A stretch of DNA of 24,625 bases from a virus: positions 1-24,625 of IMG/VR virus record IMGVR_UViG_3300044701_001332. One strand, written 5' to 3'. Numbering within the stretch: position 1 is the first letter of the stretch; every line of letters begins with the position of its first letter. Below the pieces are notes generated by a model. The model saw only the letters and a program-made list of their open reading frames with translations. It did not search any database and was not told where the DNA came from. The translations under genes and the position numbers were made by a program. Below are positions 211-24,625 of this stretch, piece by piece.

Positions 211-211
211 A

Positions 212-1770: not shown

Positions 1771-1771
1771 A

Positions 1772-2938: not shown

Positions 2939-2963
2939 TATAAGTACTTATTTTATCGTTACC

Positions 2964-2973
2964 TATAAATATT
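2964..2973 (-). promoter_or_regulatory. Putative late promoter box, neck gene unit
   Basis: The coding strand reads AATATTTATA, 26 bases before the start codon of the gp13-like gene. It matches the TATA(T/C)TTATA box found before most transcription units here. No TTG-type upstream element is visible at the usual distance. Confidence 0.5.
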
Positions 2974-3014
2974 AAGAATCAAAAGAATAGTGTTTAGAAT
3001 GAGATTATATAAAA

Positions 3015-3353
3015 TTATGCGATTGAACCGGTCACTAGCCATTTCCAATTAGAGCCATCGTACATATATAAATTTGTTTTACCATACGATGCTGATGCTA
3101 CTAACATTCCAGCTTGTCCGTTTGGGAAAGTTGTTATGGGTGTTAATTTAATAACATTATCAATATTAATCGAACCAGTTACATTTAGTGAACCCGTAAT
3201 TGTTTGATTTCCTATAAAAGTATTAGAACCAGTTGTTGCAAATGAACTACTATCTATTGAAAATCCAGATGTACCAGATGTACCATTTCTACCAGCTACA
3301 CCGGTCGTTGATATAGTTACTTGCGTAAGATTTTTAGTTATTTCTATTGCCAT
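3015..3353 (-). CDS. Small fibre-like virion protein with collagen-like start and GSL repeats
   Basis: This 112-residue protein has a short Gly-X-Y stretch (GVAGRNGTSGTSG, about 18-30). It is followed by the fibre-shaft pattern TGSNTFIGNQTITGSLNVTG (about 41-60) and a C-terminal tip ending in NLYMYDGSNWKWLVTGS. Such segments are typical of trimeric phage fibres, in which Gly-rich repeats form a shaft and the end forms a cap. It follows the 126-residue protein by four bases. Position between capsid and neck genes matches T4 wac, so it could be part of a neck whisker or head fibre, but it might also belong to a tail fibre. The product name is from repeats and position only. Confidence 0.55.
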   Translation of the reverse strand: MAIEITKNLTQVTISTTGVAGRNGTSGTSGFSIDSSSFATTGSNTFIGNQTITGSLNVTGSINIDNVIKLTPITTFPNGQAGMLVASASYGKTNLYMYDGSNWKWLVTGSIA

Positions 3354-3357
3354 TTTA

Positions 3358-3738
3358 TTATCGTGTTACATTTTTGGAAAGTTTCACCTTACCTTCTAAT
3401 AGTCTTGTAACTTCATTATCTTTTACCAATTCTAAATCGTAAAATGCTTCACCAAAATTTAATGCGGATGAAGATGCTGCTGAAATATATATCCCAATCG
3501 AACCACTTGCCAATGGAGTTGTGAAATTTGAACCACTTAAATTGATTCCAGTATTATCTGCTGAAAGTGATGATGATAGAGATAGAAAAACCTCCGATGA
3601 ATCAATATTAGGTCTGATTTGCATTCTTGCTTGATAACCACTCAAATCAATCGCAGAACCCGATTCATCGTTCCAATTGATTTGAAAATTTGTTGTTGCT
3701 CCTTGCTCTATTATAAAAGAGTATTTTCCTGCTGCCAT
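3358..3738 (-). CDS. Virion protein, beta-sandwich fibre-anchoring domain (BppU N-terminal-like)
   Basis: The 126-residue sequence has the pattern of a small beta-sandwich seen at the N-terminus of phage baseplate or fibre proteins. It opens with YSFIIEQGATTNFQINWND, followed by DLSGYQARMQIRP, later FGEAFYDLELVKDNEVTRLL and a terminal TR. I associate this with BppU-type N-terminal domains that attach receptor-binding fibres; that comparison is from memory. It is the first gene after a strong terminator and a promoter-like box 23 bases upstream, and is followed closely by the collagen-like fibre protein, so the two probably form one appendage. Confidence 0.55.
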   Translation of the reverse strand: MAAGKYSFIIEQGATTNFQINWNDESGSAIDLSGYQARMQIRPNIDSSEVFLSLSSSLSADNTGINLSGSNFTTPLASGSIGIYISAASSSALNFGEAFYDLELVKDNEVTRLLEGKVKLSKNVTR

Positions 3739-3760
3739 ATATAATTCGGTTTAATACTCT

Positions 3761-3770
3761 TATAAATATA
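3761..3770 (-). promoter_or_regulatory. Putative late promoter box, small fibre unit
   Basis: The coding strand reads TATATTTATA, an exact match to the recurring box, 23 bases before the ATG of the 126-residue virion protein. It lies directly downstream of the terminator at 3791-3822, which makes a new transcription start here plausible. Confidence 0.6.
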
Positions 3771-3790
3771 AAATTGTTAGAAAGGGGTAA

Positions 3791-3822
3791 AATAAAAAAA
3801 GGGAGAACGTTTCCATTCTCCC
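3791..3822 (-). terminator. Rho-independent terminator after large fibre gene
   Basis: On the coding strand a perfect 7-bp stem, GGGAGAA and TTCTCCC (3816-3822 and 3801-3807), with an 8-base loop is followed by seven T residues and an A/T tail. It sits 28 bases after the stop codon of the 644-residue fibre gene and just before a new promoter-like box. Confidence 0.88.
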
Positions 3823-3849
3823 AAATCAGTTATGAAGGCTGATTATTTC

Positions 3850-5784
3850 TTAACCTACTTGAGTTGCAGTTAATATTACCGATGGTGTTGCTGGTCTTGT
3901 TGGAGTTGATTGAGTTCCTTTTGCTAAAATTTGTCCATCTATGGTAGTTTTGGAATAATATATTTGAGCATAACTACCACTACTTATTGGCATTAGATAA
4001 TTTAATGTTGCCAACATATAACCCCCACCTGATATTTTTTCAAGAGTAATTTCAGTATTAGAATTAGCAACATTAGAACCCGTTATAGAATACCAAATTG
4101 AAAAATCAACTGCTTCGTTTACAGTAGTGTGTAATTGTGCTGCAATTTGGAAATTATAGATTCCTGTATTTTTTACATATATTTTACTACTATCAGCTAT
4201 ATAAATTGCTCCGTTGTTTGTCACTGTTGTATCAGTACCATTAAATTGAATTGGATATGCGGTATTTGCAGAACCAGATTGTGTTGTAGTATTGTAAAAC
4301 TGCCCTCTATTAAATAATTTATTTCCTTCGTAATAAAAACCACTTCCACTTGCCACATTTATATTACCCTTTATATCAAATGAGCCAGTTGTTTCTTGGT
4401 TTCCTACTAATATTGTATTACCAAATCTTTCGTAGTTACCCACTTGCTTCAATGAGCCACTAATATATTGGAATGAACCAGTTTGTGCTATAAATGATGC
4501 AGACCCTACTAATCTCATACCACCTGCTGAAACTAATAAGTTACCACCAATATTTGATATAGAAGTATTAGGGTCACCAATTGCATCCGATGCTATATTG
4601 ATGGATGCCGATTGAATGTAAATATCTCTAAAAGGTCTTTCCAATGTTCCTAATGTTGCTCCTCTTTCTGTCTTTGGAACTAAATCACCACCAAATTCGG
4701 TTGCTCCACTTATGAATAAAGAACCACTAATTTTATAATCCCCAATTAAAGTTTTTGAATTAGTCCAAACACTTCCACTTTTCATTAAAAGGTCACCATA
4801 AGTGGAATTAGTTGAAGTATCTATTGTATCGTGCAATCCCTTTATTGTTCCTCTCAAATGTGGTCTAACTAAAAATGTTATATTAACACCATTTATAGAT
4901 GTAATTACACATATTGAAGATTTTAAGTTTGGTGCGGTTGGTTGTACATTTGTTAAACCACCTGCTCTCGTTGGGTGTGGATATAGTATTTGTCCTTCTG
5001 TCCAAGTTTCGGAAGGGTCTTTTAATCCTGCACTTTCTAATTCCGTTCTACTAACATTTCTAACATATCCAAACCAAGTTGCAAATCCTTCTTGATTTAT
5101 TGCAACATCTTCGGTCAGAATACCTACAATATAATCGGCAGGATATGTTCCATCTGAAACACATTTTATTACTGCAATTCTATTACCTTGTGTTGGGTCT
5201 GCGGGATTGAACATAACCAAACAACCATTTGGTAAGTTACCGCCACTTTTATTTACAATTGGCGGATAGTATAATTCTTGTCCTAATTGTAAAGTTGCAT
5301 CACCACCCATTCTCAAATCCAAAGTTTTATCCGTTGTATTTGCTTGTAACATATAACTCTGGAATGGTGAAGTTGATGATGAATCAAAAACTATATAATC
5401 TAATTTACTAAAACCATTTACATCCAACGAACCTGTTATGGAAATTGAACCTGTAAAGATATGTACATCATCTAATGAATCTCCCAATATTGTTGAACCA
5501 GATGAAAAAAGTATTGATGATGAATATATAGTTACTCTATATTCATTTGCGGTAAGTGTATTAAATGATGCATTAAGAGTACCATCCGTTAAATCCGTAT
5601 CCTTTGCATATCCTTGTGTGTATTTTAATGAACCAGAATCAACCAATTCATCTAATGTTCTTGTATCATCAATCATTACGGGCTTTGTACCCATATCTCT
5701 GTTATCTCTACCAGTGTTTGGATATAATGTTTCATATCCCTGATTTTGATACGATGGTATTGGATTACCCTTTTTCTGCCCCAT
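3850..5784 (-). CDS. Large fibre-like virion protein (wac-position), mosaic with C1q-like tip
   Basis: This 644-residue protein looks like a trimeric appendage. After a short MGQKKGNPIP start it has shaft repeats rich in TGS/SGSL: TGSISITGSLDVNG (111-124), ISGSLFISGATEFGG (352-366), TGSFQYISGSLKQVGN (435-450) and TTGSFDIKGNINVASG (465-480). Between them, residues about 170-310 form a beta domain (NKSGGNLPNGCLVMF, then GILTEDVAINQEGFATWFGY) that I know from other phage fibres. LGTLERPFRDIYI (378-390) is another common fibre motif. The last 130 residues resemble a C1q-like jelly roll (NTGIYNFQIAAQL at 539-551, then FSIWYS). It ends at a strong terminator. Position matches T4 wac, but it is larger than fibritin (487 residues) and has a different tip, so head fibre or tail fibre remain possible. 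Confidence 0.65.
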   Translation of the reverse strand: MGQKKGNPIPSYQNQGYETLYPNTGRDNRDMGTKPVMIDDTRTLDELVDSGSLKYTQGYAKDTDLTDGTLNASFNTLTANEYRVTIYSSSILFSSGSTILGDSLDDVHIFTGSISITGSLDVNGFSKLDYIVFDSSSTSPFQSYMLQANTTDKTLDLRMGGDATLQLGQELYYPPIVNKSGGNLPNGCLVMFNPADPTQGNRIAVIKCVSDGTYPADYIVGILTEDVAINQEGFATWFGYVRNVSRTELESAGLKDPSETWTEGQILYPHPTRAGGLTNVQPTAPNLKSSICVITSINGVNITFLVRPHLRGTIKGLHDTIDTSTNSTYGDLLMKSGSVWTNSKTLIGDYKISGSLFISGATEFGGDLVPKTERGATLGTLERPFRDIYIQSASINIASDAIGDPNTSISNIGGNLLVSAGGMRLVGSASFIAQTGSFQYISGSLKQVGNYERFGNTILVGNQETTGSFDIKGNINVASGSGFYYEGNKLFNRGQFYNTTTQSGSANTAYPIQFNGTDTTVTNNGAIYIADSSKIYVKNTGIYNFQIAAQLHTTVNEAVDFSIWYSITGSNVANSNTEITLEKISGGGYMLATLNYLMPISSGSYAQIYYSKTTIDGQILAKGTQSTPTRPATPSVILTATQVG

Positions 5785-5793
5785 TTTATTTTA

Positions 5794-6135
5794 TTATGAA
5801 TTTTTATCTGCCCACATTACGGCTTCGTTAAAAGTCGAACCAGTTGATAATGCATAATTCAATTGATATTTTTTATACAAATCAGGATTTAATCTCCTAT
5901 CATACAATCCTATAATTTCAGATACATCCAATGATGATGAACCTGCATTTATTAATTGAGTAGTTAAAGAATTTGCATTTGCAACATAAGATATACCACC
6001 ACTAGCATACGTTTCCGTTTTTAGTGATGCGGATGTTGGGGTTAATCCGAATGCTTTACTTCCCACAGTCATATAACTAAGGAATTGTGATACATTACTA
6101 CCACTTAATATTTGATGTGTTGGTTGCTTGCTCAT
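5794..6135 (-). CDS. Small virion-associated protein of unknown function
   Basis: I do not recognise this 113-residue protein. It is Ser/Thr/Ala/Gly-rich with no Cys, no signal peptide and no membrane segment. It ends with a more helical part containing YDRRLNPDLYKKYQLNYALS. It lies two bases after the preceding Ser/Thr-rich gene and nine bases before the large fibre gene, all in one unit driven from about 6800. A structural or fibre-accessory role is inferred from neighbours alone. Confidence 0.5.
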   Translation of the reverse strand: MSKQPTHQILSGSNVSQFLSYMTVGSKAFGLTPTSASLKTETYASGGISYVANANSLTTQLINAGSSSLDVSEIIGLYDRRLNPDLYKKYQLNYALSTGSTFNEAVMWADKNS

Positions 6136-6137
6136 TA

Positions 6138-6752
6138 TTATTGATTTTTAGGAGATACTAATGCACCTTGTGTTTCAACATAAGACCAATTAGTTTTATC
6201 AGTTGGGTATTTAATTTCAAAAGCTGCGTTAGAGCCTGTTGTATTTGTTGGCCTTGTGTTTGTTGTTGACCTATTTTGAGTTGTTCCTAAACTAATTACC
6301 AATGAGTTATTTACAACACTTCCCATATTAGCTTTAGATGCTGATATGTGCATTACTACAAATGATTCTGTGAAATTGTTAAAAGTACTACTACTAAAAT
6401 CGTTATATCCTGCTATTGTTGATATAACACCATTATAATTTAATACACCAAACTTTTTTACATCATTTGAATCATTTATATTTGAATTAAAAAATGGTGT
6501 AAAATAAGAAGATGTTATTGATACTTTTGCCGATGTGTTTATCGGTCCTAATCCTGTTGATGACGTTACAAAGAAAGACCCAGTATTTAATGCAGATGCT
6601 GGAATAATTGTACTTCCTGTAATCCAATAGTTTGTACCATTTCTTTTATTATCAGTTGTTGGATATTGAGCCATACTAGCTGATGCTTCTAAACTATATC
6701 CCCAACTAGGTGACCATGTACCTGTTTGTATGGTTGTTTTCTTTTGTCCCAT
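6138..6752 (-). CDS. Ser/Thr/Asn-rich virion protein of unknown function
   Basis: The 204-residue product is rich in Ser, Thr, Asn and aromatic residues, with alternating beta-like stretches (NYWITGSTIIPASALNTGSF; FVVMHISASKAN) typical of virion surface proteins. It begins MGQKKTTIQ, sharing MGQKK with the large fibre protein two genes later. That suggests a common N-terminal attachment tag or a duplicated gene start. No enzymatic motif is visible. It is the first gene of a unit that starts after the capsid-gene terminator, with a promoter-like box 40 bases upstream. A head-decoration or fibre-base role would fit its place after the capsid gene, but this is a guess. Confidence 0.5.
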   Translation of the reverse strand: MGQKKTTIQTGTWSPSWGYSLEASASMAQYPTTDNKRNGTNYWITGSTIIPASALNTGSFFVTSSTGLGPINTSAKVSITSSYFTPFFNSNINDSNDVKKFGVLNYNGVISTIAGYNDFSSSTFNNFTESFVVMHISASKANMGSVVNNSLVISLGTTQNRSTTNTRPTNTTGSNAAFEIKYPTDKTNWSYVETQGALVSPKNQ

Positions 6753-6791
6753 TTTTATTTTATTATTTTATTAAACTATAACCAATACATT

Positions 6792-6801
6792 TATAAATAT
6801 A
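6792..6801 (-). promoter_or_regulatory. Putative late promoter box, fibre unit
   Basis: The coding strand reads TATATTTATA, an exact match to the recurring box, 40 bases before the ATG at 6752 and directly after the capsid-gene terminator. Confidence 0.6.
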
Positions 6802-6825
6802 AGAATGTTTGAGAAACCTATAAGC

Positions 6826-6854
6826 ATAAAAAAGGGGAAGAATTTCTTCTCCCC
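6826..6854 (-). terminator. Rho-independent terminator after major capsid gene
   Basis: On the coding strand GGGGAGAA pairs with TTC(T)CCCC across a short loop, an 8-bp stem with one bulged base, followed by six T residues (complement of 6828-6833). It begins 30 bases after the capsid stop codon and separates the scaffold-capsid unit from the fibre unit. Confidence 0.85.
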
Positions 6855-6883
6855 CAATTTTATTATCTAAGAATTACTTTAGA

Positions 6884-8518
6884 TTAGATAGATGCTAAAT
6901 CTTTAACATAAATCTTACCATAGTATTCAGGACGAACCATTTTCTTAGCGTAACGAGTCATCACACCTCTACGTGGAGTAAAGTTTTGTGGGTCATACAC
7001 TAATGGAGTCATAATCAATGGTACATAAGGAGCGTAAACAGCACCAGTCTCTAAGAAGTTGTTACCTCTATAACCCATCAAGATTTCGTTAGAAGTCATG
7101 TAAGGGTTTTTGTAAACTGTGTATCTATTGCTCATAGAACCTACTGCAGTAACACCAGCAGCGAACTGCATAGCATCTTTATCTGCATTTACAACGAATC
7201 CAGGAATTGATTCTAAGATAGTACAAACATCAGGAGATGCAACGATGAAGTTAGCACCACCACGAAGTGTTAATTGATGAATCTTGTTAGAAACTTTGTT
7301 CAATTTAACACCTAATGTTTGAAACCATGCATTCTTAGTGTATGCATTTGAAGAACCACCAATGTTAGACCAAGCTCCACCTACATATTCCTCACCAACG
7401 TTAGTTGACCAGTATTCAGTAGTTAATGCGTTGCTCTTTAACATATCTAAGATTTCTAAATCAATCTCTAAAGAGATATAATCAGATAACATAGAAGTTA
7501 ATTCAGCTTCTGCATCAATTGAGTGGTAAGCGTTCAAGTCTTGCGCTAATTCAGGAGTCCATACTGCTTTCAACTTACGAGTCTTAGCAACGATAGCCTC
7601 TGATTTTAATTCAAGATCGATTTCAGGAATATCCAATGCAGTTGTTGTGTTACCAGCAGAATTTGCAGTTGAATCTTCGAAATCACCTCTATCGTAAGCT
7701 ACAGGAACTTCAGAATAAGTGATAGTTGCAGCACCTGCGTCTGCTAATGCAGCTCTTTGAGTTAAAGATGCAGATACGAATAATACAACGTTAGTACCAG
7801 ATACATAGTTGAATTGACCTAAAGTAGAGTGTACACCAGCCACTTGGAATGAACGTACAGCTTCAGTATCAGCAGTTGCTGAAATGTTAGCTTTAGGGAT
7901 AGTCAACTTAACGATTTGGCGACCTGTTGCTACAACGTTAGCTACTGATTGAGAGTAGTTAGCGTCAAATCCTAATTCAACCCAAGAAGCTGAAGCTTGT
8001 GCGGTTGTATTAGCTGCTACAGATGCATCGTTTACAGAGTATCCGTAACGTCCTTCACCATAAAGACCGTTTACAGCTGCATCAGTTCTACCGAAGTTAG
8101 CTGCTGAACCAGTTGCGTTAGTACCACCGAAAAGTGATTTACCACCAAACTGTCCTGCACCACCTTGAGCTGAACCATATTTGAAATCTAAGAAGAAGAT
8201 AAGACCTGAAGGTAAGTTCATTGGTTGTACACTAACGAATTCCTTTGCAGCGATTTCTCCGAAGATTCTTCTTACTAATGGTAACGCAACACCAGACCAT
8301 TCTTCAGAACCTGAAGAAGTACCAGTTTGAGTTGCCTCATCAAGCAATTGTTTTGCTTGGTTTTCTAACAATACAGCCATGCTGTGTTGTTCTCTTTCTT
8401 TCATACCTTCTAAAAGGCCAGTTTTCTCCCATTTAGCTTTCAATTGGCGAGTTTCTGCCAACATTACCGCTTGTGGGTTTTTGCCTTCCATAAGTTTGCT
8501 TAAATCAAAATTTGCCAT
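6884..8518 (-). CDS. 23: Major capsid protein, T4 gp23-like
   Basis: This 544-residue protein forms the hexameric shell of the head. The N-terminal region has the gp23-type pattern MAVLLENQAKQLLDEA (47-62), followed by GVALPLVRRIFGEIAAKEFV and then VQPMNLPSGLIFFLDFKYGS. The C-terminal part has RYTVYKNPYMTSNEILMGYR and a final PRRGVMTRYAKKMVRPEYYG. Length is close to T4 gp23 (521). T4 gp23 is cut by the prohead protease after an LxE/IxE motif at residue 65; here LDE at 59-61 followed by Ala is the matching candidate, giving a mature N-terminus at A62. The gene follows the scaffold gene and ends at a strong terminator. It is visibly less AT-rich than its neighbours, as expected for a very highly expressed gene. 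No gp24-like vertex paralogue is in the window. Confidence 0.95.
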   Translation of the reverse strand: MANFDLSKLMEGKNPQAVMLAETRQLKAKWEKTGLLEGMKEREQHSMAVLLENQAKQLLDEATQTGTSSGSEEWSGVALPLVRRIFGEIAAKEFVSVQPMNLPSGLIFFLDFKYGSAQGGAGQFGGKSLFGGTNATGSAANFGRTDAAVNGLYGEGRYGYSVNDASVAANTTAQASASWVELGFDANYSQSVANVVATGRQIVKLTIPKANISATADTEAVRSFQVAGVHSTLGQFNYVSGTNVVLFVSASLTQRAALADAGAATITYSEVPVAYDRGDFEDSTANSAGNTTTALDIPEIDLELKSEAIVAKTRKLKAVWTPELAQDLNAYHSIDAEAELTSMLSDYISLEIDLEILDMLKSNALTTEYWSTNVGEEYVGGAWSNIGGSSNAYTKNAWFQTLGVKLNKVSNKIHQLTLRGGANFIVASPDVCTILESIPGFVVNADKDAMQFAAGVTAVGSMSNRYTVYKNPYMTSNEILMGYRGNNFLETGAVYAPYVPLIMTPLVYDPQNFTPRRGVMTRYAKKMVRPEYYGKIYVKDLASI

Positions 8519-9823: not shown

Positions 9824-11146
9824 TTAGAAAAGATAAATAAAATCAGTATGCTTATCTGATTTAAGCTTTTGGCGGATACGCTCATCTGAACAACCAAAGT
9901 GATTGGCTGCATCTACCATTGAATAAAATTCTATACCATCACAACTAATGATAGGTAATTCTAAACGGATATTGTTTCCCCACAAATCTTGCATTTCTTC
10001 ATAGGTAATATCCCAACCATCTACTTTTTTCCAATGACGATATTTGGGATTGTTTGATTCTATGTAGTTCCTAACCATTGATTCAGTCATATCACCACCA
10101 ATCAACTCTGCTATTTGTTTTGGATTCTCAAAAGGAATACCATCAACTTCGTATTTAATTTGTGGTTTTGTTTCCTCACCAATGATTTGCCACTCTTTGT
10201 ATTTGGATTTAGTTGAACGACATCTCCTCTCAACTTCAGTAGCCACTAATGTATTTGGGTCTATTGAAATAGCTGCTTCTCTAAATGATTTGTATTGTAC
10301 ACCATCTACCACACATTGATAAGTTCCATCAAATTCAATATCTTCTGCAGCAATATCAGGATTTCCTTTTACAAATACTAATATGTTTTGATGGACAGAT
10401 GCTACCTTACGATTTCGTTTGAAGTAAGTATCAACCACTCTAGCAGCCTGATGTTGTGAGTTGAATAGAATCATATCGTTGTAGAAATGTAGTCCAGCTT
10501 CCTCACATGCTTGAATAGTTTTGGATACTAGTCCTCTATACTTTCCTATTTTGTAATTACCAGTTAGGGATTGTTCTCTTACTTCCGATACTACTACCGC
10601 AAAGAATCTATTATTCTTTAACTTTTTTGCAGCCTTTCCTAAGATACTGAAATATTTCTCATCGAACTTATCATCTTCCATTGTTGATATATCCAATGGA
10701 TTATCACTATAAACTTCTAAATCATAATAAGGAGGACAAGTAAAAACAAAATCAAATTGGTCATCACCCAAATAATCCAACATCTCATCACTATCACCAC
10801 TTACCCACTTTGGTTTTGATGATTGCTTTCGGTTTTCTTCTATTTGTTGTTTGGATAAATCGATACCCATATATTCATATCCCATTTCAGTTGCCACAAT
10901 ACCTCTAACACTTCCGCCGGCAAATGGGTCTAAAACCTTACCTTCTTTTGGAGTGAACCATTGATACATATTCTCACAAAGGGTTGCATCGAATATTGAA
11001 ATTGTATTATCTTCCCAGAAACGGGCTCTACTTTCAGCATCTTCTCTACCTAATTCTGATTGAATATTGTAGGTTTGTATCCAGTACCTCTTACGGTCCT
11101 GCCATTCTTTAGTTCGGGTATCTAATATTGAGAAAGGCTTAATCAT
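9824..11146 (-). CDS. DNA methyltransferase with three C-terminal NUMOD/IENR1-like DNA-binding repeats
   Basis: This 440-residue protein should transfer a methyl group from S-adenosylmethionine to an amino group of adenine or cytosine in DNA. The cofactor motif DPFAGGSVRG is at 73-82 and the catalytic motif TCPPYYD at 136-142. Motif I before motif IV with a short gap fits a gamma-type order. The C-terminal 160 residues hold three repeats of the pattern DGxxxxSxxxAA...R...K.W: DGVQYKSFREAA (281-292), DGIPFENPKQIAELIGG (335-351) and DGIEFYSMVDAANHFGCSDE (403-422, then RIRQKL). This is the pattern of homing-endonuclease modular DNA-binding domains, here probably acting as target recognition. I chose ATG at 11146; an upstream TTG at 11152 is less likely. 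It interrupts the head gene cluster and is probably accessory. Confidence 0.85.
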   Translation of the reverse strand: MIKPFSILDTRTKEWQDRKRYWIQTYNIQSELGREDAESRARFWEDNTISIFDATLCENMYQWFTPKEGKVLDPFAGGSVRGIVATEMGYEYMGIDLSKQQIEENRKQSSKPKWVSGDSDEMLDYLGDDQFDFVFTCPPYYDLEVYSDNPLDISTMEDDKFDEKYFSILGKAAKKLKNNRFFAVVVSEVREQSLTGNYKIGKYRGLVSKTIQACEEAGLHFYNDMILFNSQHQAARVVDTYFKRNRKVASVHQNILVFVKGNPDIAAEDIEFDGTYQCVVDGVQYKSFREAAISIDPNTLVATEVERRCRSTKSKYKEWQIIGEETKPQIKYEVDGIPFENPKQIAELIGGDMTESMVRNYIESNNPKYRHWKKVDGWDITYEEMQDLWGNNIRLELPIISCDGIEFYSMVDAANHFGCSDERIRQKLKSDKHTDFIYLF

Positions 11147-11147
11147 A

Positions 11148-11157
11148 TACAAATATA
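11148..11157 (-). promoter_or_regulatory. Possible promoter box touching the methyltransferase start
   Basis: The coding strand reads TATATTTGTA, containing TATATTTG, a perfect match to the Bacteroidota -7 consensus TAnnTTTG and one base from the phage box. It ends one base before the ATG at 11146, so if active it would give a leaderless transcript. That problem keeps confidence low. Confidence 0.3.
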
Positions 11158-11577: not shown

Positions 11578-12132
11578 TTATTCACCTTCATATTCCGCAT
11601 CAGCGTATAATCCAGTAACATACTTATCTTCAATTGCAGCTAAGTTTCTTCTATATGATGCTAATTGTTCCGTACCTTTTTTCAAGTCCTGCAACATTTT
11701 ACTTTTTTTATTTAATTCCTTTTCTGCAAAATACTTAGCAGCCATTTCTTTTTGTTTAGCCTCCAATTCATTAACCTTCTTTTGTACTGCCATATACTTT
11801 ACATACATTTTTGGTACTCTACCAGCTTCATTTATTGATTCGTTTGTTCCGTATTCGTGGTAGTTTCCAGCTGCTTGAGAAATGTAGTTTTCTGCTTTAG
11901 AAATATGGTCTTGAATCCAAGCCGGTATTTCTTTTTCATTCTCACCCATTTTAGCTTTCAATTCAGTTGCCATTTTAATAATGGTATCTAATTGATTTTG
12001 TCCCATAGAAACTTCATGGTCTTCACCTTCTGCTTCATTAACAAATGCTTTTGCAAATGGATTAGAAATTACTTTACCCATTTCAAATTTACCAAATGCT
12101 TTTTGTGATACCAATCCTCCTAAACGAATCAT
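11578..12132 (-). CDS. Prohead-core-associated helical protein, unknown function
   Basis: The 184-residue protein is strongly helical and charged. A central segment EIPAWIQDHISKAENYISQA (about 68-87) resembles a helix I have seen in other phage core proteins. The C-terminal half is a likely coiled coil (VQKKVNELEAKQKEMAAKYF onward). It contains NESINEAG near residue 100, a peptide whose INE-Ala fits the LxE/IxE rule of T4-type prohead proteases. Related NESVNE peptides occur in two other core genes. It is last in the core operon, two bases after the previous gene, and is followed by a terminator. I infer an internal head or scaffold-accessory role from place and composition; no T4 counterpart can be named. 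Confidence 0.55.
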   Translation of the reverse strand: MIRLGGLVSQKAFGKFEMGKVISNPFAKAFVNEAEGEDHEVSMGQNQLDTIIKMATELKAKMGENEKEIPAWIQDHISKAENYISQAAGNYHEYGTNESINEAGRVPKMYVKYMAVQKKVNELEAKQKEMAAKYFAEKELNKKSKMLQDLKKGTEQLASYRRNLAAIEDKYVTGLYADAEYEGE

Positions 12133-12684: not shown

Positions 12685-13281
12685 TTATGCTATTTCAGTT
12701 ATTATTTCTCTCATTAAATCCTGTGCTTTGCAGTAATCACCACAAACATCAGTTCCTATTTGTTGTAAACCTCTATTTACGGATTCGTTTACAGGCACCA
12801 TAAATGCTCCATGTGTTGATGGATTTGAAACAAAGTCCCAACCAATCAATTCAAAATCATCCTGCACCTTTACCTTACCTTCTCCGATATTAGTTACCGA
12901 ACCCATACCTCTTGATGAGATACCTAATAGGATACCAGCTTTCAACAATTCTTTTAAGATATTGCCTGATGGAGTTGGTAGAATTTCTACTGTTCCACAT
13001 AGGTCTTCACCTTCCCAATGTATTTCTCTCACATTATGAGATACGTTTTTCAGATTGATTACAGTTGAATCTGGGTGGTCTAATTCTCCTAATGCTCTAC
13101 GTTCCTTAATAAGTACTTCGTATTTCTTAGCTTCTCTCATTAAGATTTCTTTAGGATATACTCTACCATTTTGGTTTTCCGCAGATGCTCTTTGTAGAAT
13201 ACCCTTTACCAAAGTTCTTCCACCTTCATCTTCTTTTACCTTACCTTCAAAGAGGTTTGTTTCTATTAGTAATGATTTCAT
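12685..13281 (-). CDS. 21: Prohead maturation protease, T4 gp21-like
   Basis: This 198-residue serine protease should digest the scaffold and trim capsid and internal proteins during head maturation. The family His motif is GELDHPD (65-71, His69) and the nucleophile region is GISSRGMG (120-127, Ser122 or Ser123). Both fit the herpesvirus-assemblin-like fold of phage prohead proteases. VSNPSTHGAF (151-160) is another recognisable segment. Length is close to T4 gp21 (212). The N-terminus has LIE (5-7) and LFE (10-12), possible self-cleavage sites. It sits in the middle of a core operon upstream of scaffold and capsid genes, as in T4 apart from the accessory insertion. Confidence 0.9.
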   Translation of the reverse strand: MKSLLIETNLFEGKVKEDEGGRTLVKGILQRASAENQNGRVYPKEILMREAKKYEVLIKERRALGELDHPDSTVINLKNVSHNVREIHWEGEDLCGTVEILPTPSGNILKELLKAGILLGISSRGMGSVTNIGEGKVKVQDDFELIGWDFVSNPSTHGAFMVPVNESVNRGLQQIGTDVCGDYCKAQDLMREIITEIA

Positions 13282-17972: not shown

Positions 17973-18410
17973 TTACCATTTTCTACAAGACCAATATCTT
18001 GCTTTTGTTCTAGGACCGGGATTATCACAATTGTGTCTTGCTCTAAAACTAGCCCTTCTATCAGGATTATTTTTCTTAATCTTTACTCCCTTTTGACCAA
18101 AGTTTACTTTAATAACTTTACCAGTCTTAGGATTTTTTACATATACCTTAAACTTTTTAACATCACCTGCAGTTGGTTTACCTAATTTAACTTCTCTACC
18201 CTGATATTCTGCTTCGAATACACAAGGACAATTAGCTTCAGTTAGTTCGTTTGAGTAAGATTTAAGATATGCTATAAAATCATCCATATCTTCTTGCTCA
18301 ACATCCAATTCATCATAATCATCAATTGGATTGTCTTGTGGAGTATCTCCCATAGAATATGCATTATCTACATACTCATCTTCATTTAAGATATTTGTTA
18401 ATCTAATCAT
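17973..18410 (-). CDS. Small protein with basic Cys-containing C-terminal domain, upstream of portal
   Basis: The 145-residue protein has an acidic first half (MIRLTNILNEDEY, then DDYDELDVEQEDMDDF) and a basic second half ending SFRARHNCDNPGPRTKARYW, then SCRKW. This C-terminal domain, starting around KVYVKNPKTGKVIKVNFGQK, is one I recall in several T4-like phage proteins, without a known function. Four Cys (two in NCPC, one in HNC, one in SCRKW) could bind a metal. The first ten residues end in ILNE, resembling the capsid-targeting peptide of T4 internal proteins, with Glu at position 10. It precedes the portal gene by seven bases. A DNA-binding internal head protein is a reasonable guess, no more. 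Confidence 0.6.
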   Translation of the reverse strand: MIRLTNILNEDEYVDNAYSMGDTPQDNPIDDYDELDVEQEDMDDFIAYLKSYSNELTEANCPCVFEAEYQGREVKLGKPTAGDVKKFKVYVKNPKTGKVIKVNFGQKGVKIKKNNPDRRASFRARHNCDNPGPRTKARYWSCRKW

Positions 18411-18462: not shown

Positions 18463-20058
18463 CTACAACCACTGGGTTAAATCCTCCATACTATCACCAA
18501 TTTGCATTTTCCAAGGGTTATCATCTATATTACTTCCACCATATACACCAGAATGCTGCATGTTTGATGAAATACCTCCCATAGCCCTTTTGGTTAAATC
18601 AATACCTTCCTGTTTTAATCTAAGTGCGGTATCCCTAACCCACAATCCAATACAAAATGCCATCACTAAGTCATCGTTATATCCCTTCATAGCCTCAGCT
18701 CTACCATTCATAAATATAAATGTAAACAATTCATCTATCAAACGATTAGAACGAACTGTAACTGCTTTTTCTCTAAAATATTCATCTAATTTAGATACAA
18801 TCAAAGGTCTAGTCTTAGATGTAGTTGAGAATCCAGCAACCATCTGTCTTTCATCGGCTCTATATTTATTTCTCATTTGGTTTTCAACATCTACATACTT
18901 CAAATCCTTACTCATATAGAATAAGTTTTTGTATCCTCTATCTATTACTTGCTGAATAGCTGCCCAACCAATATTTGCGTTCTCTATTACAAGTAATGCA
19001 TCATTGTATTGCGTAGATAATTCAACTAAGAAGTTTCCAAAATCTTTAGTATCAACCTTTCCTTTGTATTCAGCTACTTGAGTACAACTATTGATTTCCA
19101 TAACATGAGCTGCGGAGTAATCCGAACCATCTCCTCTAGCCACATCGGCAATTACCATATAAGAACCACCTGGTGCTGGGTATTCCCATCTCCAAAGGTT
19201 TCCATCAAATCCAGTCTTCTCTAATGGGTCTTGGCAATAACTTTCTTTATAGAACATCAATAGTTCTGGGTCAATAACAGTATCACCAGAAGATACAAAG
19301 TCACAATCACATTCCTGTGCTGCTTTTTTTGCTCCTAATAATTTTTCTTGTTCCTCTCTCCAGGCTTCACCTCTTTCAGGGTGTACTGTCCAATGTAATC
19401 TGATTGTATTAAATGGGTTAGTACCTTCTTCAGCTGATAACCAAGTTTTATGAAACCAATTACCCACACCATTTGGAGTAGAAAGTGCAATACAACTACC
19501 ACCCGTTGAAAGTGTTGATTGTGCGGATGTCCAAATTTCATCAATATCACCAATGAAGGCGGCCTCATCAAATATTAGAAGTGATAAGGCTTCCGAACGT
19601 CCAGCATCAGGAGATGATGCAATAGCCTTAATTTGAGAACCATTTTGTAATTTAAGTGAAAGTTTATTATCTTCTAAAGAACCACCCTTTAGCCAACTAG
19701 GAAGTAATTCATGCATTACTCTTACCTTAGTTACTAAGTTCTTTGCTACATCTTGCTTTGTTGCAATAACCAATACGTTGAAATCACTATTGAACAACAT
19801 TCTCCATAGTGCATATCCAGCTGAAAGAGTTGAGATACCCGTTTGACGGGATTTGAGTACTATATTAAAACGATTTCCTGCAAATTGTGTTAGGGTACTT
19901 TCCTGAAATGGGAAAAGATGAAAAGGTATCTTACCTCTCACCGGATGCTGAATCATACAATACTTCTTCATAAAGTGAATCGGGTCTACCGCACACTTTT
20001 TGTATTCATCTGCTATAATCTCTTTAAGAGATTTCTTTTGTGTTATACCAGTACTCAT
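18463..20058 (-). CDS. terL: Terminase large subunit, T4 gp17-like
   Basis: This 531-residue motor uses ATP to pump DNA through the portal and cuts the concatemer. The ATPase part has Walker A SRQTGIST (70-77), Walker B LLIFDEAAF (160-168, Glu165 likely catalytic) and the coupling motif STPNG (193-197). The nuclease part has acidic residues in VIADVARGDGSDYS (302-315), VIEN (357-360) and NDDL (461-464), matching an RNase H-like metal site. T4 gp17 is 610 residues. I start it at ATG 20058, one base after the upstream stop; a TTG at 20067 would overlap that gene. It is the second gene of a two-gene unit. Confidence 0.97.
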   Translation of the reverse strand: MSTGITQKKSLKEIIADEYKKCAVDPIHFMKKYCMIQHPVRGKIPFHLFPFQESTLTQFAGNRFNIVLKSRQTGISTLSAGYALWRMLFNSDFNVLVIATKQDVAKNLVTKVRVMHELLPSWLKGGSLEDNKLSLKLQNGSQIKAIASSPDAGRSEALSLLIFDEAAFIGDIDEIWTSAQSTLSTGGSCIALSTPNGVGNWFHKTWLSAEEGTNPFNTIRLHWTVHPERGEAWREEQEKLLGAKKAAQECDCDFVSSGDTVIDPELLMFYKESYCQDPLEKTGFDGNLWRWEYPAPGGSYMVIADVARGDGSDYSAAHVMEINSCTQVAEYKGKVDTKDFGNFLVELSTQYNDALLVIENANIGWAAIQQVIDRGYKNLFYMSKDLKYVDVENQMRNKYRADERQMVAGFSTTSKTRPLIVSKLDEYFREKAVTVRSNRLIDELFTFIFMNGRAEAMKGYNDDLVMAFCIGLWVRDTALRLKQEGIDLTKRAMGGISSNMQHSGVYGGSNIDDNPWKMQIGDSMEDLTQWL

Positions 20059-20059
20059 A

Positions 20060-20743
20060 TTAATCAACCGGTGGTTTAACTAAATCGTAACCTTTATCTT
20101 TTAATTTATCCCAAGCTTCGTTTCTTAGTTTAATTGCTTGTTGAATTTCTTCTTCAAAACGAGTTATATCTGCTAAGATTTCTGCTTTTAATTCAGTTAC
20201 ATCTCTCTCCATACTCCACTTTTCAATCGTACCATCTTCGTTTACAACTTCATATTCTTGCTTAGCATCATTGTATGCTTGTTGGAATTGAGAAACTACA
20301 TCTTTACCATAAGAAATCATATTATTAAATATCTTATAATCTTCGTATGCTTCCCACAAACCATCATATTTTATTTGAGCTTCTCTTATAGTAAGACAAT
20401 GTAAACAATAACCTGTTTTGGATATTAATTTTTTATCAACCCTTCCGTATTTTATTGTTTTACAATTATCAGATTTACAAGTATTTAATGCTGCTAAATA
20501 AGCTCTTGTTTCAGCCATTATATCACCCAATTCCGATACTTCTATTTTACCACCAGCATGCTGTTCCCAAGACTTTCCAGTCTCATCAGTCCACCTTTCC
20601 CCAACTTTTCTTTTTACCTCTTGTTTATCAGCTCCTGCAAATGATACAAACGCTTCTTTTTGATATTCACCACCAGTCAATACCATATCTACCAACTTTC
20701 TACGCGTTGGATGCATAAACTTTTTATTGAATTCCTTTGCCAT
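20060..20743 (-). CDS. Putative terminase small subunit (gp16 position), with four-Cys motif
   Basis: The 227-residue protein directly precedes terL with a one-base gap, the place of the small terminase that recognises DNA and regulates the motor. It has a basic N-terminus (HPTRRKLVDMVLTGG), then a probable zinc ribbon or knuckle with Cys 89, 94, 113 and 116 (NTCKSDNC and GYCLHC). It ends in a long charged C-terminal helix (about 170-220) likely to form coiled coils, as expected for oligomeric small terminases. T4 gp16 is 164 residues and, as far as I recall, lacks such a Cys cluster. The assignment is by position and coiled-coil character only; a zinc-binding DNA-recognition protein of other kind is possible. 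Confidence 0.55.
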   Translation of the reverse strand: MAKEFNKKFMHPTRRKLVDMVLTGGEYQKEAFVSFAGADKQEVKRKVGERWTDETGKSWEQHAGGKIEVSELGDIMAETRAYLAALNTCKSDNCKTIKYGRVDKKLISKTGYCLHCLTIREAQIKYDGLWEAYEDYKIFNNMISYGKDVVSQFQQAYNDAKQEYEVVNEDGTIEKWSMERDVTELKAEILADITRFEEEIQQAIKLRNEAWDKLKDKGYDLVKPPVD

Positions 20744-20794: not shown

Positions 20795-23479
20795 TTAACT
20801 ATCGAAGAAAATACCTAAAATTTGATTTAGGGGTGCGAATGCACCTGTTAATTTGTAAGTGTTACCACCATATACGAATACAATACCTTCATTTGGTACA
20901 ATCTTATCAAATCCACCCAAAGCGTTAAGTCTTTCTAACTCTAATTTTAATTTTGCAATCTTCTTAGGGTCACCGCTTGCTTTTACTTGAGCGATTGTTG
21001 ATTCCAAACGAGCTACCATTTGTCTTTTAGCACTATCAGGGTTTGCTGTAAGAACAGATTCCATAAAAGATAGTACATCAGCACCAACTCCTAAGAATAT
21101 CTCCTCAAATCTCATTAGATTTTGTTTTGATATTTTTTGTTGGTCTTGCTTATCAATTTTTTCAGCCCAATCTTTTAATTTTAAATCCTGTATTGTATTG
21201 ATACGGAATGATTTATCGTTAAATGCCCACCTCTTAACCAATCCTATTTTTTGTTGAGTATCTAATTTTTTTGCACCCTTTTCTACAAAATTAGTCCACC
21301 ATGCTTGGTGATAATCAGCTACACCATCCGAATCATTTAAACTAAATTCGTTTTGAAGTTTAGAAATCATTCCTAAATATTTTCCTTGTAATTTAGAAAG
21401 GTCTTCTGATTTAGGAAGTTTGTTTATTGGAGGTCCCTGAATTGTGTACTTAGATTGTACATGTGCATTTACTTGCTTAATCATACCACCTAATATACTT
21501 GCTGCTTGTTGATTTTCTCCGATAATGACACCATCTATATCATACTCAAACGTACCATGAAATACTAATAGTGGTTGATTATATGGAATTACGTTTACGG
21601 ATGTTGGATATATTACTTCCAAATTCATAAAACACGCACCATCCTTAAAAATCTTTTGTCTTTGTGGTTCGGATAATGCCCCAATTGCTTTTGATAAATC
21701 TTGCATAGCAAAGTTATATGCATCTGTCAATCCACCTCTATTTGCAAACTTTTCAGCTACCTGTCCTATTGTCATAGCACCCTCACCTTTATTCTTTAGA
21801 TGCGATTTATTACGAGCAGCAACTAATCTACCATTTACCCAACTAACCGCTAGTGCCTGTCCATCTGTTTTTTCTCTTGCTAATTCCAAATCACCATTAA
21901 GAGCTTTTATTACAATTTGCTTTAAATCACCAAATGTAAGATTCATCTCAATATCAAATGGATGGTTCATGTGACCATAAGCCCCACCTTCTACTAATAG
22001 CGATTCGTTAATATTTTCGTTTTTTAACTTATCAATTTGTTTTTTAAGTTTATCTATCTCAGCTCTAACTTTCATTTGTGCCGGAGACATTGGCATCATT
22101 TTAAAAGCCTTATTATATAGTACTACAAGTTCTTTCTCTAAATCTTTTAATCCTTCTTTTACTGGAGTATATTCTTCACTACCATCGTTATCTAACTTAG
22201 ATTTTAATTTCTTAACATCTTTTGGATTTGGTGCTCCGTTAATATATCCACCAGGTAAAGATAATCCTACACCTGCCCCACCACCAAGTCCCATTTCATC
22301 CAATAAATTATCAAAATCTTCAACTATTTCCTTTATATCTTCTTTTGAAATTATTTGAGGTTTTTGATTTTTAGGAAGTTCCCAAAATCTTTTAGGTTTT
22401 TTAATTGATTTTTTTGGTTCAGTTTCTTGCCAGTTTTCAACTGTATGAGGGTCATCAGCTGGATTCAATGTACTCTGAACTACATTTTTTACTTTATATA
22501 CTGCTTTTCTAAATTGGGTTTCGGTATCTTTTGATTTACCTCTACCTCTCATAGTATCTGCTTTTGGTTCTTCCAATTGAACATACCCACCCTGCTTATA
22601 CCAATTTTCAGGTTTAGCTTTATTTAAAATTCTTTTTTGTCCATCTGCTACAAATGATGTATCAGGTTCATCGCCTGCAGTCATACCAGCATTGCTAGCA
22701 GCTTCTTTTAAATTTTCTTTCTTAGGTATTCTGAACGTTACTGCTTTCTTACCATTAATTGTTGGCATTCCCCATTCATCTTCACCTATTGATTTAACAA
22801 CTACTTTTTTGTTTTTGAATTTACCCATTAATAGAGTATCTCCAACCTTTACATTTAATTTGATTTCCTCATTAATACACTCTTTAAGTTTTTTCAACTT
22901 AAGAGTAATCATTTTGAATATTTGGTCATCAAACTTTGGATATGCTTTTGTAAAGTTTTTCTTTCTTTCTTCTTCATCACCAGCACTTAACCAATAACGA
23001 ACATCAGTACCACTAATAGCATTTGGTTGTGCAGGCGCCGCATACACATATCCTTTATCTAAATAAGGTTCTTCTACTTTACCTTTATATGGAGTAAAGT
23101 ATTTACCACTTAGACGTGATGAATCCTTTTCACCCACAACAGTTATAAAACCAGTTGTATCTGAATCAAACTTATTAAGTATTTCTTGAGGAGCGTATGG
23201 GTTTTTAATTTGTACAATTTTATTTGATGAGATACCAAACATCTTCATCATTATTGCTTTCTTTTCTTTAAACCCAAATGGAGATTTTTTATTATCGGTT
23301 ACATCGGAAGTTCCTATATAAACACTATCCCTTCCAAATTTCCTAACCAAATGGTCATACGTTGCATAATGACCCTTATGAAATGGTTGAAAGCGGCCAG
23401 AATAGACAACAACTACTTTGTCCATTTCTGCCGCTTCTCCCAATATTGCTTCCAATAAAAATTTTGCTAATCCTTTCAT
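20795..23479 (-). CDS. Fusion of NMNAT-like adenylyltransferase and ligase-like covalent nucleotidyltransferase
   Basis: This 894-residue protein joins two nucleotide-transfer enzymes. Residues about 21-165 are an HxGH nucleotidyltransferase: SGRFQPFHKGH (27-37) and SGTDVR (156-161). GRFQPFH is typical of NMN adenylyltransferases, so NAD synthesis is a candidate activity. A small beta module follows (VGDTLLMGKFKNKKVVVKSI, then GMPTINGK, 212-244), then a long linker. Residues about 498-894 carry the ligase-superfamily motifs in order: KTDG (537-540, Lys537 to take AMP), NLEVIYP (619-625), LLVFHG (637-642), EGIVF (864-868) and YKLTG (875-879). A roughly 220-residue helical insertion separates the last two. 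The N-terminus MKGLAKFLLEA resembles T4 capsid-targeting peptides. LVE at 495-497 sits just before the ligase domain. Substrates are unknown. Confidence 0.75.
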   Translation of the reverse strand: MKGLAKFLLEAILGEAAEMDKVVVVYSGRFQPFHKGHYATYDHLVRKFGRDSVYIGTSDVTDNKKSPFGFKEKKAIMMKMFGISSNKIVQIKNPYAPQEILNKFDSDTTGFITVVGEKDSSRLSGKYFTPYKGKVEEPYLDKGYVYAAPAQPNAISGTDVRYWLSAGDEEERKKNFTKAYPKFDDQIFKMITLKLKKLKECINEEIKLNVKVGDTLLMGKFKNKKVVVKSIGEDEWGMPTINGKKAVTFRIPKKENLKEAASNAGMTAGDEPDTSFVADGQKRILNKAKPENWYKQGGYVQLEEPKADTMRGRGKSKDTETQFRKAVYKVKNVVQSTLNPADDPHTVENWQETEPKKSIKKPKRFWELPKNQKPQIISKEDIKEIVEDFDNLLDEMGLGGGAGVGLSLPGGYINGAPNPKDVKKLKSKLDNDGSEEYTPVKEGLKDLEKELVVLYNKAFKMMPMSPAQMKVRAEIDKLKKQIDKLKNENINESLLVEGGAYGHMNHPFDIEMNLTFGDLKQIVIKALNGDLELAREKTDGQALAVSWVNGRLVAARNKSHLKNKGEGAMTIGQVAEKFANRGGLTDAYNFAMQDLSKAIGALSEPQRQKIFKDGACFMNLEVIYPTSVNVIPYNQPLLVFHGTFEYDIDGVIIGENQQAASILGGMIKQVNAHVQSKYTIQGPPINKLPKSEDLSKLQGKYLGMISKLQNEFSLNDSDGVADYHQAWWTNFVEKGAKKLDTQQKIGLVKRWAFNDKSFRINTIQDLKLKDWAEKIDKQDQQKISKQNLMRFEEIFLGVGADVLSFMESVLTANPDSAKRQMVARLESTIAQVKASGDPKKIAKLKLELERLNALGGFDKIVPNEGIVFVYGGNTYKLTGAFAPLNQILGIFFDS

Positions 23480-23494
23480 ATAGTTTTCTTACTA

Positions 23495-23504
23495 TATAAA
23501 TATT
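23495..23504 (-). promoter_or_regulatory. Putative late promoter box, fusion enzyme gene
   Basis: The coding strand reads AATATTTATA, 16 bases before the ATG at 23479, within the 29-base gap after the coiled-coil gene. The short distance leaves a very short leader. Confidence 0.45.
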
Positions 23505-23508
23505 AGGA

Positions 23509-23910
23509 TTATTCTTTTACAACTTTCATACCGTTACCATTGGATTCGGTTGTTTGTTGTCTTTGCATTTCAGCTAATTGTTTTCTAGTTGGTGCACCAG
23601 GTTGGTACTGAATAGTTCCCTCTTGAATATTAATTCTACCTTGTGGGTATTTTTCATCAAGTCCATCAATTACCTCTCTTAATTCAGAATTTAATACTTT
23701 GAATTCATCTTCTCCTTTTTCTAAAAAATCATCCATTCTTACCATTTCTTCGTGGATTTCTTTTTTACGAATATGGATTTGTCCAAATTCGATAATTAAA
23801 GAATTGATTTTTTGATTTAAATCATTAATTGATTTTAAAACATCTGCTTCAATTTTAGCAGTTTCAATAGTAATTTGTTGTTGTTGCGGTATGTTATCTA
23901 AACCTGCCAT
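23509..23910 (-). CDS. Small coiled-coil protein, unknown function
   Basis: I do not recognise this 133-residue protein. After a Gln-rich start (MAGLDNIPQQQQITI) it has a heptad-like helix from about 18 to 85 (IEADVLKSINDLNQKINSLI and on). NIQEGTIQYQPGAPTRKQLA follows near 98-117, and the tail is Gln/Asn/Lys-rich. No signal, membrane segment or Cys is visible. It has its own promoter-like box 28 bases upstream and lies before the fusion enzyme gene. A structural or assembly-chaperone function would fit its form, but nothing in the sequence decides this. Confidence 0.55.
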   Translation of the reverse strand: MAGLDNIPQQQQITIETAKIEADVLKSINDLNQKINSLIIEFGQIHIRKKEIHEEMVRMDDFLEKGEDEFKVLNSELREVIDGLDEKYPQGRINIQEGTIQYQPGAPTRKQLAEMQRQQTTESNGNGMKVVKE

Positions 23911-23955: not shown

Positions 23956-24625
23956 TTATTTTTTAAACACAGAAACTCCTTTTTCTTTCACAACCTCACC
24001 TGCGCAATAGTTTCCCCATTTAATTGATTCACCTACATCATTAGAATCTAAATATTTTGCGGTAAATCCTGCTACAAAGGTATCACCAGCACCACTTACA
24101 TCTGCGTTTTCTATTGGAATAACCGGATATGTTGTATGTTTGTATGCCGTTCCTGTTTTGTCAAGTGTACATATAATTTTATCAAACAACCATTCGTTAT
24201 CTCTTATTACATCTTTACTAAATTCCCACTCTGCTCGGTTTACTTTAATGAATTTTAAATTTGCACACCAATCACCTAATTTCTTTTTAGTATCAGCAAT
24301 AACTAAATTATGCATAGAGGCTATTGTATTAATATCTTCTTCGGTTAAAAATCCTTTACAATAATCAGATATTATAATTGCGGAATATTGTGTCAAATCA
24401 GGTAAATCGTTGATATTAATTCTATTAACAGAATCGTTCTCGTCCACTCTTAAATACAATTCATTTGTATCTTCATTAACATAACGAGTTTTTATTATAT
24501 TACCATTATCAGAAAACATATCAACATCGATACCCATAGCTGATAAATTATTTGTTGTGTTAGCTGCCATACCAACTCCATACTTTTCATACGTTGGAAT
24601 AAATACAGGACCTTTTCCCTCTGGG
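23956..24625 (-). CDS. PfkB-family sugar kinase, partial (5' end beyond window), HldE kinase-like
   Basis: The frame is open to the right edge. Codons beyond the internal ATG at 24570 read PEGKGPVFIPTYEKYGVGMA, then ANTTNNLSAMGIDV, matching the glycine-rich N-terminal part of PfkB kinases, so the true start lies outside. The C-terminal signature DVSGAGDTFVAGF holds the catalytic Asp of the GAGD motif. The enzyme should phosphorylate a sugar or nucleoside using ATP. The N-terminal pattern is nearest to heptose-7-phosphate kinases (HldE/RfaE), which make surface-sugar precursors, but the substrate cannot be read from the sequence. At least 222 residues are present; the family is usually about 300-330. 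It is followed by the coiled-coil gene after 45 bases, without a visible hairpin terminator. Confidence 0.75.
   Translation of the reverse strand, partial: PEGKGPVFIPTYEKYGVGMAANTTNNLSAMGIDVDMFSDNGNIIKTRYVNEDTNELYLRVDENDSVNRININDLPDLTQYSAIIISDYCKGFLTEEDINTIASMHNLVIADTKKKLGDWCANLKFIKVNRAEWEFSKDVIRDNEWLFDKIICTLDKTGTAYKHTTYPVIPIENADVSGAGDTFVAGFTAKYLDSNDVGESIKWGNYCAGEVVKEKGVSVFKK

Follow-up and report, generated by a model that had tools for sequence, protein, structure and literature searches.

Why does a T4-type phage keep, among its head genes, a single protein with the hallmarks of two unrelated nucleotidyl-transfer enzymes? The question is raised by virus record IMGVR_UViG_3300044701_001332 (IMG/VR), whose whole 24.6-kb stretch (24,625 nucleotides) was analysed here and is called the window, and by its gene at 20795-23479, in which an NMN adenylyltransferase (NMNAT)-like domain is joined to a ligase-type domain. 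On balance, we favour the reading that this gene encodes a head-packaged, protease-processed modular polyprotein of T4-like aquatic phages, which would serve RNA repair and NAD metabolism and would be injected together with the DNA.

The frame is intact and its predicted coordinates are correct; it lies on the minus strand, where it runs uninterrupted from 23479 to 20795 through 894 amino acids (aa), and the plus strand across the same interval is crowded with stops. The motifs follow each other as the original prediction, made from the letters of the sequence, had described: HKGH, SGTDVR and then, in ligase order, KTDG, NLEVIYP, LLVFHG, EGIVF and YKLTG. The two spacings pointed out there are also present, namely a gap of about 375 residues between the N-terminal motifs and motif I (residues 161 to 537) and a stretch of about 220 residues inserted between motif IIIa and motif IV (residues 642 to 864). 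The gene and the features of its N-terminal half are the following.

20795..23479, minus strand: whole gene, 894 aa; a stop-free frame with end-to-end relatives in many contigs
22880..23416, minus strand: NMNAT/cytidylyltransferase-like domain, residues 22-200 (Pfam PF01467; PDB NadM 2qjt)
23369..23380, minus strand: HKGH, residues 34-37, from the sequence and the alignment of N-domains
22997..23014, minus strand: SGTDVR, residues 156-161, with S156, G157, T158 and R161 invariant

The N-terminal half was rightly taken for NMNAT-like, and its membership of the HIGH-motif nucleotidyltransferase (CTP_transf_like) superfamily is secure. Residues 25-161 score 33 bits against Pfam CTP_transf_like PF01467 (cut-off 21), HKGH and ISGTDVR are in place, the domain also matches PHROG cytidyltransferases, and 18 diverse N-domains all share GRFQP, the last His of HxGH and SGTxxR. 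The nearest solved structures, found with the family profile, are NadM-type NMN adenylyltransferases (PDB 2qjt, E 1.6e-6), the nearest NCBIfam models are likewise NadM, and NMN is the likely substrate as far as these similarities can tell. GRFQPFHKGH and ISGTxxR are shared with NadM-type enzymes, including the phage NadM/Nudix proteins, and NadM enzymes are the best matches in PDB and NCBIfam and make up many of the phage matches. Unlike these enzymes, the window protein lies far below the NadM equivalog cut-offs of NCBIfam (29.5 versus 397 bits and 22.5 versus 181), has no Nudix domain and is fused to a ligase-type domain. An HldE-like N-domain, an idea that came from the neighbouring PfkB/RfaE kinase gene, was rejected, since the best scores go to NadM models and HldE is absent among the matches.

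The features that bear on packaging and processing lie at the N-terminus and between the two catalytic ends; a hyphen after the Glu, as in LLVE-GG, marks a presumed cleavage site.

23447..23479, minus strand: N-terminal MKGLAKFLLEA, residues 1-11, capsid-targeting-sequence (CTS)-like, with the pattern of T4 IpII/IpIII MKTYQEFIAEA
22715..22873, minus strand: small conserved movable module, residues 203-255 (VGDTLLMGKFKNKKVVVKSIGEDEWGMPTINGKK), at other positions in relatives and also in an unrelated phage record
22154..22291, minus strand: linker module GLGGGAGVGLSLPGGYINGAPNPKDVKKLKSKLD..VKE, residues 397-442; homology blocks often stop exactly after VKE
21983..22012, minus strand: junction INESLLVE-GG, residues 490-499, a prohead-protease-like site kept despite differing upstream modules

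The start of the protein agrees, as a sequence pattern, with that of T4-type head-internal proteins. The pattern M-x(4-6)-[FY][ILV]xE, tested on family members with an N-terminal NMNAT-like domain, occurs in 56 of 59, compared with 1 of 201 open reading frames (ORFs) of Microcystis phage Mel-JY01, and among 59 ORFs of T4 it is restricted to IpII and IpIII, which start with MKTYQEFIAEA in the T4 record. The N-terminal peptides of T4 internal proteins are cut off by the T4 protease (PMC9958956), and T4 Alt is trimmed at both ends (PMC5694885). With IpI-III and Alt the window protein shares the MKxxxxF(I/L)xEA start (IpII, IpIII), a prohead-protease-type site and a cargo of enzyme or anti-defence type; the T4 cargo, however, consists of short proteins or single enzymes, whereas the window protein is a multi-enzyme mosaic, with packaging predicted. 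The CTS pattern is also found in 8 of the 16 ORFs of L254, including the one for a ligase-like far relative, near a protease-like gene. In this 410-kb contig, which is binned as rumen Firmicutes, eight ORFs starting MK(S/D)(I/L)xx(Y/F)(I/L)xE form a run over 185-7595, probably a head-packaged protein set of a jumbo phage. Separately, small head-cluster proteins of the window (17973-18410 and 11578-12132) start with MIRLxxL, as do the stand-alone ligase-like relatives L147 and L150, and this start is possibly a second packaging tag.

A second protease-like site, (L/I)xE-GG, precedes the ligase-like domain in nearly all members although the modules upstream of it vary, and stand-alone ligase-like relatives begin at the same junction (MIRLGKLLNEVLLKEGG, MKFLKSYEEFLNENLILEGG). 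Of 211 deduplicated ends of homology blocks in the middle region, 20 have [VILMF]xE as their last residues, versus a background of 2.6% (binomial p 8e-7); these ends come from related sequences and are not fully independent, and the excess may be taken as supportive only for processing. The two enzymes are fused in one frame, as had been stated, but the halves may not stay joined, since a hypervariable mosaic and a conserved protease-like junction lie between them.

Both catalytic ends are conserved throughout the family, and between them lies a mosaic whose small modules vary through gain, loss, repetition and reordering. Relatives are encoded in at least 349 viral contigs, and in at least 545 by a looser search; among phage records, the ligase-like domain is present in Mel-JY01 and two metagenomic phages. 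Extra modules in relatives include DUF5661 (L071), a ParB-like N-terminus (L081), GNAT (L152) and a CCA-adding nucleotidyltransferase (L250). The largest examples are a 2401-aa protein (L155, 34-7236), in which the NMNAT and ligase-like domains share their frame with a P-loop kinase, a CCA-adding enzyme and an HD domain located ahead of them and which also contains the GLGGGAGVGLSLPGGYINGAPNPKDVKKLKSKLD..VKE linker module, and a 1907-aa protein (L250, 835-6558) with the CCA-adding enzyme ahead of the NMNAT- and ligase-like domains, again in one frame. At the other extreme are stand-alone ligase-like far relatives of 421 aa (L154, with an NMNAT-like domain at the end of the next gene) and 430 aa (L254, 26% identity). 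A search of viral contigs for relatives of the L081 and L082 C-domains brought little gain.

The head gene cluster named in the original prediction is of T4 type: terminase large subunit, portal, prohead protease, major capsid protein and neck/tail genes are neighbours on the same strand, and the gene sits just before the terminase region in 142 of the 144 loci with enough flanking sequence.

20060..20743, minus strand: next gene, 227 aa, a conserved neighbour downstream in 141 of 144 loci
18463..20067, minus strand: terminase large subunit (phrog_2), downstream in 142 of 144 loci
12685..13281, minus strand: prohead protease, the presumed processing enzyme (phrog_207 head maturation protease, E 3e-50)
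6884..8518, minus strand: major capsid protein (phrog_138, E 1e-74)

The major capsid protein has LLDE-AT in place of FLTE-AE of T4 gp23, the cleavage position being judged by eye from the sequence.

Under the reading that we favour, the MKGLAKFLLEA tag would direct the polyprotein into the prohead core, and a gp21-type phage protease would cut (I/L/V)xE sites, including FLLE-A and LLVE-GG. Two enzymes would be released by this cleavage, an adenylyltransferase of NadM type and a ligase-type enzyme whose Lys537 accepts AMP; they would leave the head with the DNA and be at work before the early genes are expressed. As for the ligase-type enzyme, it would most likely rejoin RNA that nucleases of the host's defences have severed (tRNA repair); its NMNAT-like partner would restore NAD+ or make a related adenylated nucleotide. 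Rather unlikely, in our estimate, is that the same two enzymes are made late and stay unpackaged, serving NAD salvage and nucleic-acid ligation inside the cell, with the location among head genes reflecting co-transcription only. Phage NadM/NadR salvage enzymes and RNA ligases are indeed ordinary intracellular enzymes (PMC9503650, PMC7824862), and packaging of this family is a prediction. Such a purely intracellular role, however, is at odds with the CTS-like N-terminus of nearly all members, with the nearly constant position before the terminase, with the protease-like junctions and with the tagged cytidylyltransferase in virions of phage S-CREM2. The latter protein, gp154, belongs to the same superfamily (E 7e-8 with an N-domain profile, in a search of a small set) and starts with MKNFSSFLTEA; it was detected by mass spectrometry in purified virions, and its encapsidation was suggested by the authors (PMC10665884).

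What the second enzyme might be follows from the C-terminal half, which contains the features listed below.

20798..21988, minus strand: RNA-ligase-type nucleotidyltransferase-like domain, residues 498-894 (AF2 model of residues 484-894, structure comparison, alignments)
21860..21871, minus strand: motif I KTDG, residues 537-540, invariant; Lys537 is the predicted AMP-accepting lysine (structural alignment)
21806..21814, minus strand: RNK, residues 556-558, at the position of motif Ia; R and N invariant
21605..21625, minus strand: motif III NLEVIYP, residues 619-625; E621 invariant
21554..21571, minus strand: motif IIIa LLVFHG, residues 637-642, conserved
20900..21511, minus strand: helical insertion between motifs IIIa and IV, residues ~657-860, about 200 residues, all-helical in the model
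20876..20890, minus strand: motif IV EGIVF, residues 864-868; EGxV invariant
20843..20857, minus strand: motif V YKLTG, residues 875-879, with one lysine only (KxT, not KxK); K, T and G invariant

In an alignment of nine diverse members, with identities down to 26%, the invariant residues are E536-K537-x-D539-G540, R556-N557, E621, E864-G865-x-V867, K876, T878 and G879, together with an N-terminal HxxHPF ahead of motif I. These are the positions expected of a ligase/capping-type nucleotidyltransferase, except for the second lysine of motif V, which is Thr here. Since relatives at 26-50% identity keep the motif residues invariant, the motifs are no chance occurrence. Known sequence families do not recognize the domain: residues 485-894 have no significant match in Pfam, PHROG or PDB sequence families, Pfam RNA_ligase PF09414 does not match the window domain, and relatives yield weak scores at most (phrog_562, best E 0.05, in 2 of 14 members; PF09414, E 0.027, in L251). 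Matches of the helical insertion to PgdA_N and ribosomal S6 were under the cut-off and were discarded as helical noise.

The structural comparison points to RNA ligases. In a VIA-align comparison of an AF2 model of residues 484-894, built from 27 sequences, with the PDB, all 19 best rows are RNA ligases (Z 4.9-6.1), among them T4 Rnl2 (6.1), NgrRnl (6.0) and Rnl1 (5.4), with Trl1 and archaeal ligases also in the top rows. In the core-only rows the alignment mostly begins at model residue 54, which is Lys537, and places it upon the catalytic lysine of known ligases: residue 35 of Rnl2, 99 of Rnl1, 170 of NgrRnl, 92 of the Palaeococcus ligase, 148 of fungal Trl1 and, lower down, 481 of LigD. NgrRnl K170, Palaeococcus K92 and Rnl1 K99 are named in the titles of PDB entries as K-to-A/M mutants, and Rnl2 K35, Trl1 K148 and LigD K481 are residues that we take to be the catalytic lysines. 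Among the predicted viral structures of BFVD, the family itself comes first, followed by RNA ligases at E 7e-3 and weaker. An AF2 model of the full-length 894-aa protein had a mean pLDDT of 47 and was set aside.

The outcomes that would have spoken against the original prediction, an unrelated fold or a Lys537 away from the ATP pocket, were not seen; the predicted fold aligns best with RNA ligases and Lys537 falls on catalytic lysines in these alignments, at moderate Z scores. By motifs and structural alignment, the C-terminal half is a covalent nucleotidyltransferase-like domain of ligase type, as had been suggested; of the roles proposed for it, DNA end-joining is not supported, the structural neighbours being RNA ligases. 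With T4 Rnl1 and Rnl2, the Naegleria RNA ligase and the Trl1 ligase domain, its best structural matches with Lys537 in register, the domain shares motifs I, III, IIIa, IV and the first Lys of V in the same order; it differs from them in its sub-threshold sequence score, the KxT of motif V, the helical insertion of about 200 residues and the invariant HxxHPF. Owing to the KxT we do not file it as a member of the classical Rnl1/Rnl2 families.

It is unlikely that the C-domain charges itself with a nucleotide but transfers it elsewhere, in RNA 5' capping or nucleotidylation of host proteins. Ligases and capping enzymes form one superfamily with these motifs in common, the family has no recognised ligase accessory domain, and motif V and the helical stretch between IIIa and IV depart from the usual ligase. 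On the other hand, the closest structural matches are RNA ligases, Foldseek against the PDB gives a capping complex only at E 7.9, and relatives carry RNA end-repair modules. That the domain is no nucleotidyltransferase at all, through accidental motif resemblance or as a dead structural descendant used in head assembly, would fit the lack of significant HMM matches to Pfam RNA_ligase or PHROG and of significant Foldseek matches in the PDB, but is very improbable given catalytic-motif residues among the few invariant ones at 26% identity and RNA ligases in the top rows with the lysine in register.

We regard RNA repair as the most likely task of the ligase-like part of the presumably packaged polyprotein, in view of the RNA ligases among which it falls structurally and of the RNA end-processing modules found in relatives; for the NMNAT-like part it is restoration of NAD+. 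RNA ligases use ATP. The earlier idea that one half makes NAD for the other in a self-contained cycle is left without support by this cofactor and by the distribution of NadV (PF04095), which is missing from 10 of 11 family records (several of them partial). As NadV is found in only 1 of 11 cyanophage-type records as well, we also rejected self-contained NAD salvage; with NadV missing, the NMNAT-like part would have to draw on NMN from the host or use a different nucleotide.

The rarity of NadV also weighs against the favoured reading as a whole, as do several other observations. Mel-JY01 has a separate annotated RNA ligase, and repair would be partly redundant there. Virion proteomics is limited to S-CREM2 gp154, a distant relative without a ligase domain. 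A motif as short as (I/L/V)xE occurs often, and the junction statistics are blurred by an excess of Glu at block starts as well. In the C-domain, motif V is YK(L/F)TG, in which the first Lys is invariant and the second of the usual two-lysine (KxK) motif is Thr; confidence in the model is moderate (pLDDT 75.6, pTM 0.63), Z scores reach only 5-6, and Foldseek against the PDB, with RNA ligases ranked first, is not significant (best E 0.35).

A comparable pair of genes is widespread in cyanophages. The DUF6267 gene directly precedes a cytidyltransferase-type gene in S-RSM4, S-CAM1, S-PRM1, P-HM2, P-RSM4, S-CAM8, S-SZBM1 and syn9 (gp183/gp184), one small gene separates the two in DLP6, and the adjacency is missing in P-SSM2 and S-CRM01. 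DUF6267 occurs in 468 phage records and the cytidyltransferase in 511, mostly of cyanophages. In most T4-like cyanophages examined the two genes adjoin and often overlap (e.g. S-RSM4 L255 3814-5570, P-RSM4 L260, S-CAM8 L263, S-SZBM1 L264), and the cytidyltransferase next to DUF6267 frequently has a CTS-like start. Such starts are present on the cytidylyltransferases of P-RSM4 (MKKFNAFLIEA), S-CAM8 and syn9 (gp184), and also on the DUF6267 protein of DLP6. The pairing in the window gene, which had seemed unfamiliar, is therefore not unique, being fused in hundreds of contigs and found as neighbouring genes in most of these cyanophages. Like the C-domain of the window gene, DUF6267 shows HxxHxxD, KxDG, VFH, EGxV and K in the same order; unlike the fusion, DUF6267 and the cytidyltransferase are separate genes in reverse order, often away from the head genes. 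DUF6267 (PF19782) was rejected as the family of the C-domain, as there is no Pfam match and the full-length hhalign probability is 0.5-1.7%. The three motif segments alone align to DUF6267 with E values of 0.017, 0.0034 and 0.0004, these segments having been cut around the expected motifs. Because the full-length profile comparison is not significant, a possible homology of the C-domain to DUF6267 is only a lead and not a result. We tentatively entertain a more far-reaching proposal, which we consider possible but less than probable: a capsid-loaded, cleavable "repair kit" of an NAD(+)-making enzyme and an RNA ligase (in relatives also kinase, CCA-adding and HD domains) would provide tRNA repair and NAD+ restoration from injection onwards, and DUF6267 with its neighbouring cytidyltransferase would be the unfused form in hundreds of cyanophage genomes.

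T4 is known to package enzymes in its head that act before phage gene expression (Alt, IpI), and the same has been proposed for polyvalent proteins; packaged polyvalent and internal proteins are a known kind. Polyvalent proteins (Iyer et al. 2017, PMC5512222) are large phage mosaic proteins of unrelated enzyme domains that are believed to enter the cell along with the DNA; in the parts of that study available to us, they are released by embedded peptidases, and RNA ligases are mentioned only as separate phage proteins. The window family resembles them in that a polypeptide encoded with head genes unites several enzyme domains of unrelated kinds and, as far as those parts go, differs in that the presumed cutter is the prohead protease and the NMNAT-like and ligase-type pair forms a constant core. 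A packaged pairing of this type as a conserved core with prohead-protease-type junctions was not found in the literature searched, which excluded preprints and covered few subscription papers.

Further features of the window lie outside the gene. A PfkB kinase gene runs off its end (23956-24624); the closest relative of its product is the heptose-7-phosphate kinase RfaE/HldE domain I, and homologs are present in 36 of 80 related loci with upstream room. A DNA methyltransferase (9824-11152; phrog_12517/498) with a weakly homing-endonuclease-like C-terminal stretch lies within the head cluster, and two adjoining structural proteins (3015-5784) have S/T/G-rich repeated segments of the TGSLNVTGSI type in common. 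The leader 5' of the start codon (23480-23510) is A/T-rich without a Shine-Dalgarno-like GGAG; together with the Flavobacteriales-binned relative L250, it hints at a Bacteroidota host.

If the favoured reading is true, these phages would protect tRNA and NAD+ right from the start of infection. A phage domain that is widespread but unannotated would obtain a function, which would also provide a lead for DUF6267, and the processing of multi-enzyme polyproteins by the prohead protease would become directly testable in an isolate, Microcystis phage Mel-JY01.

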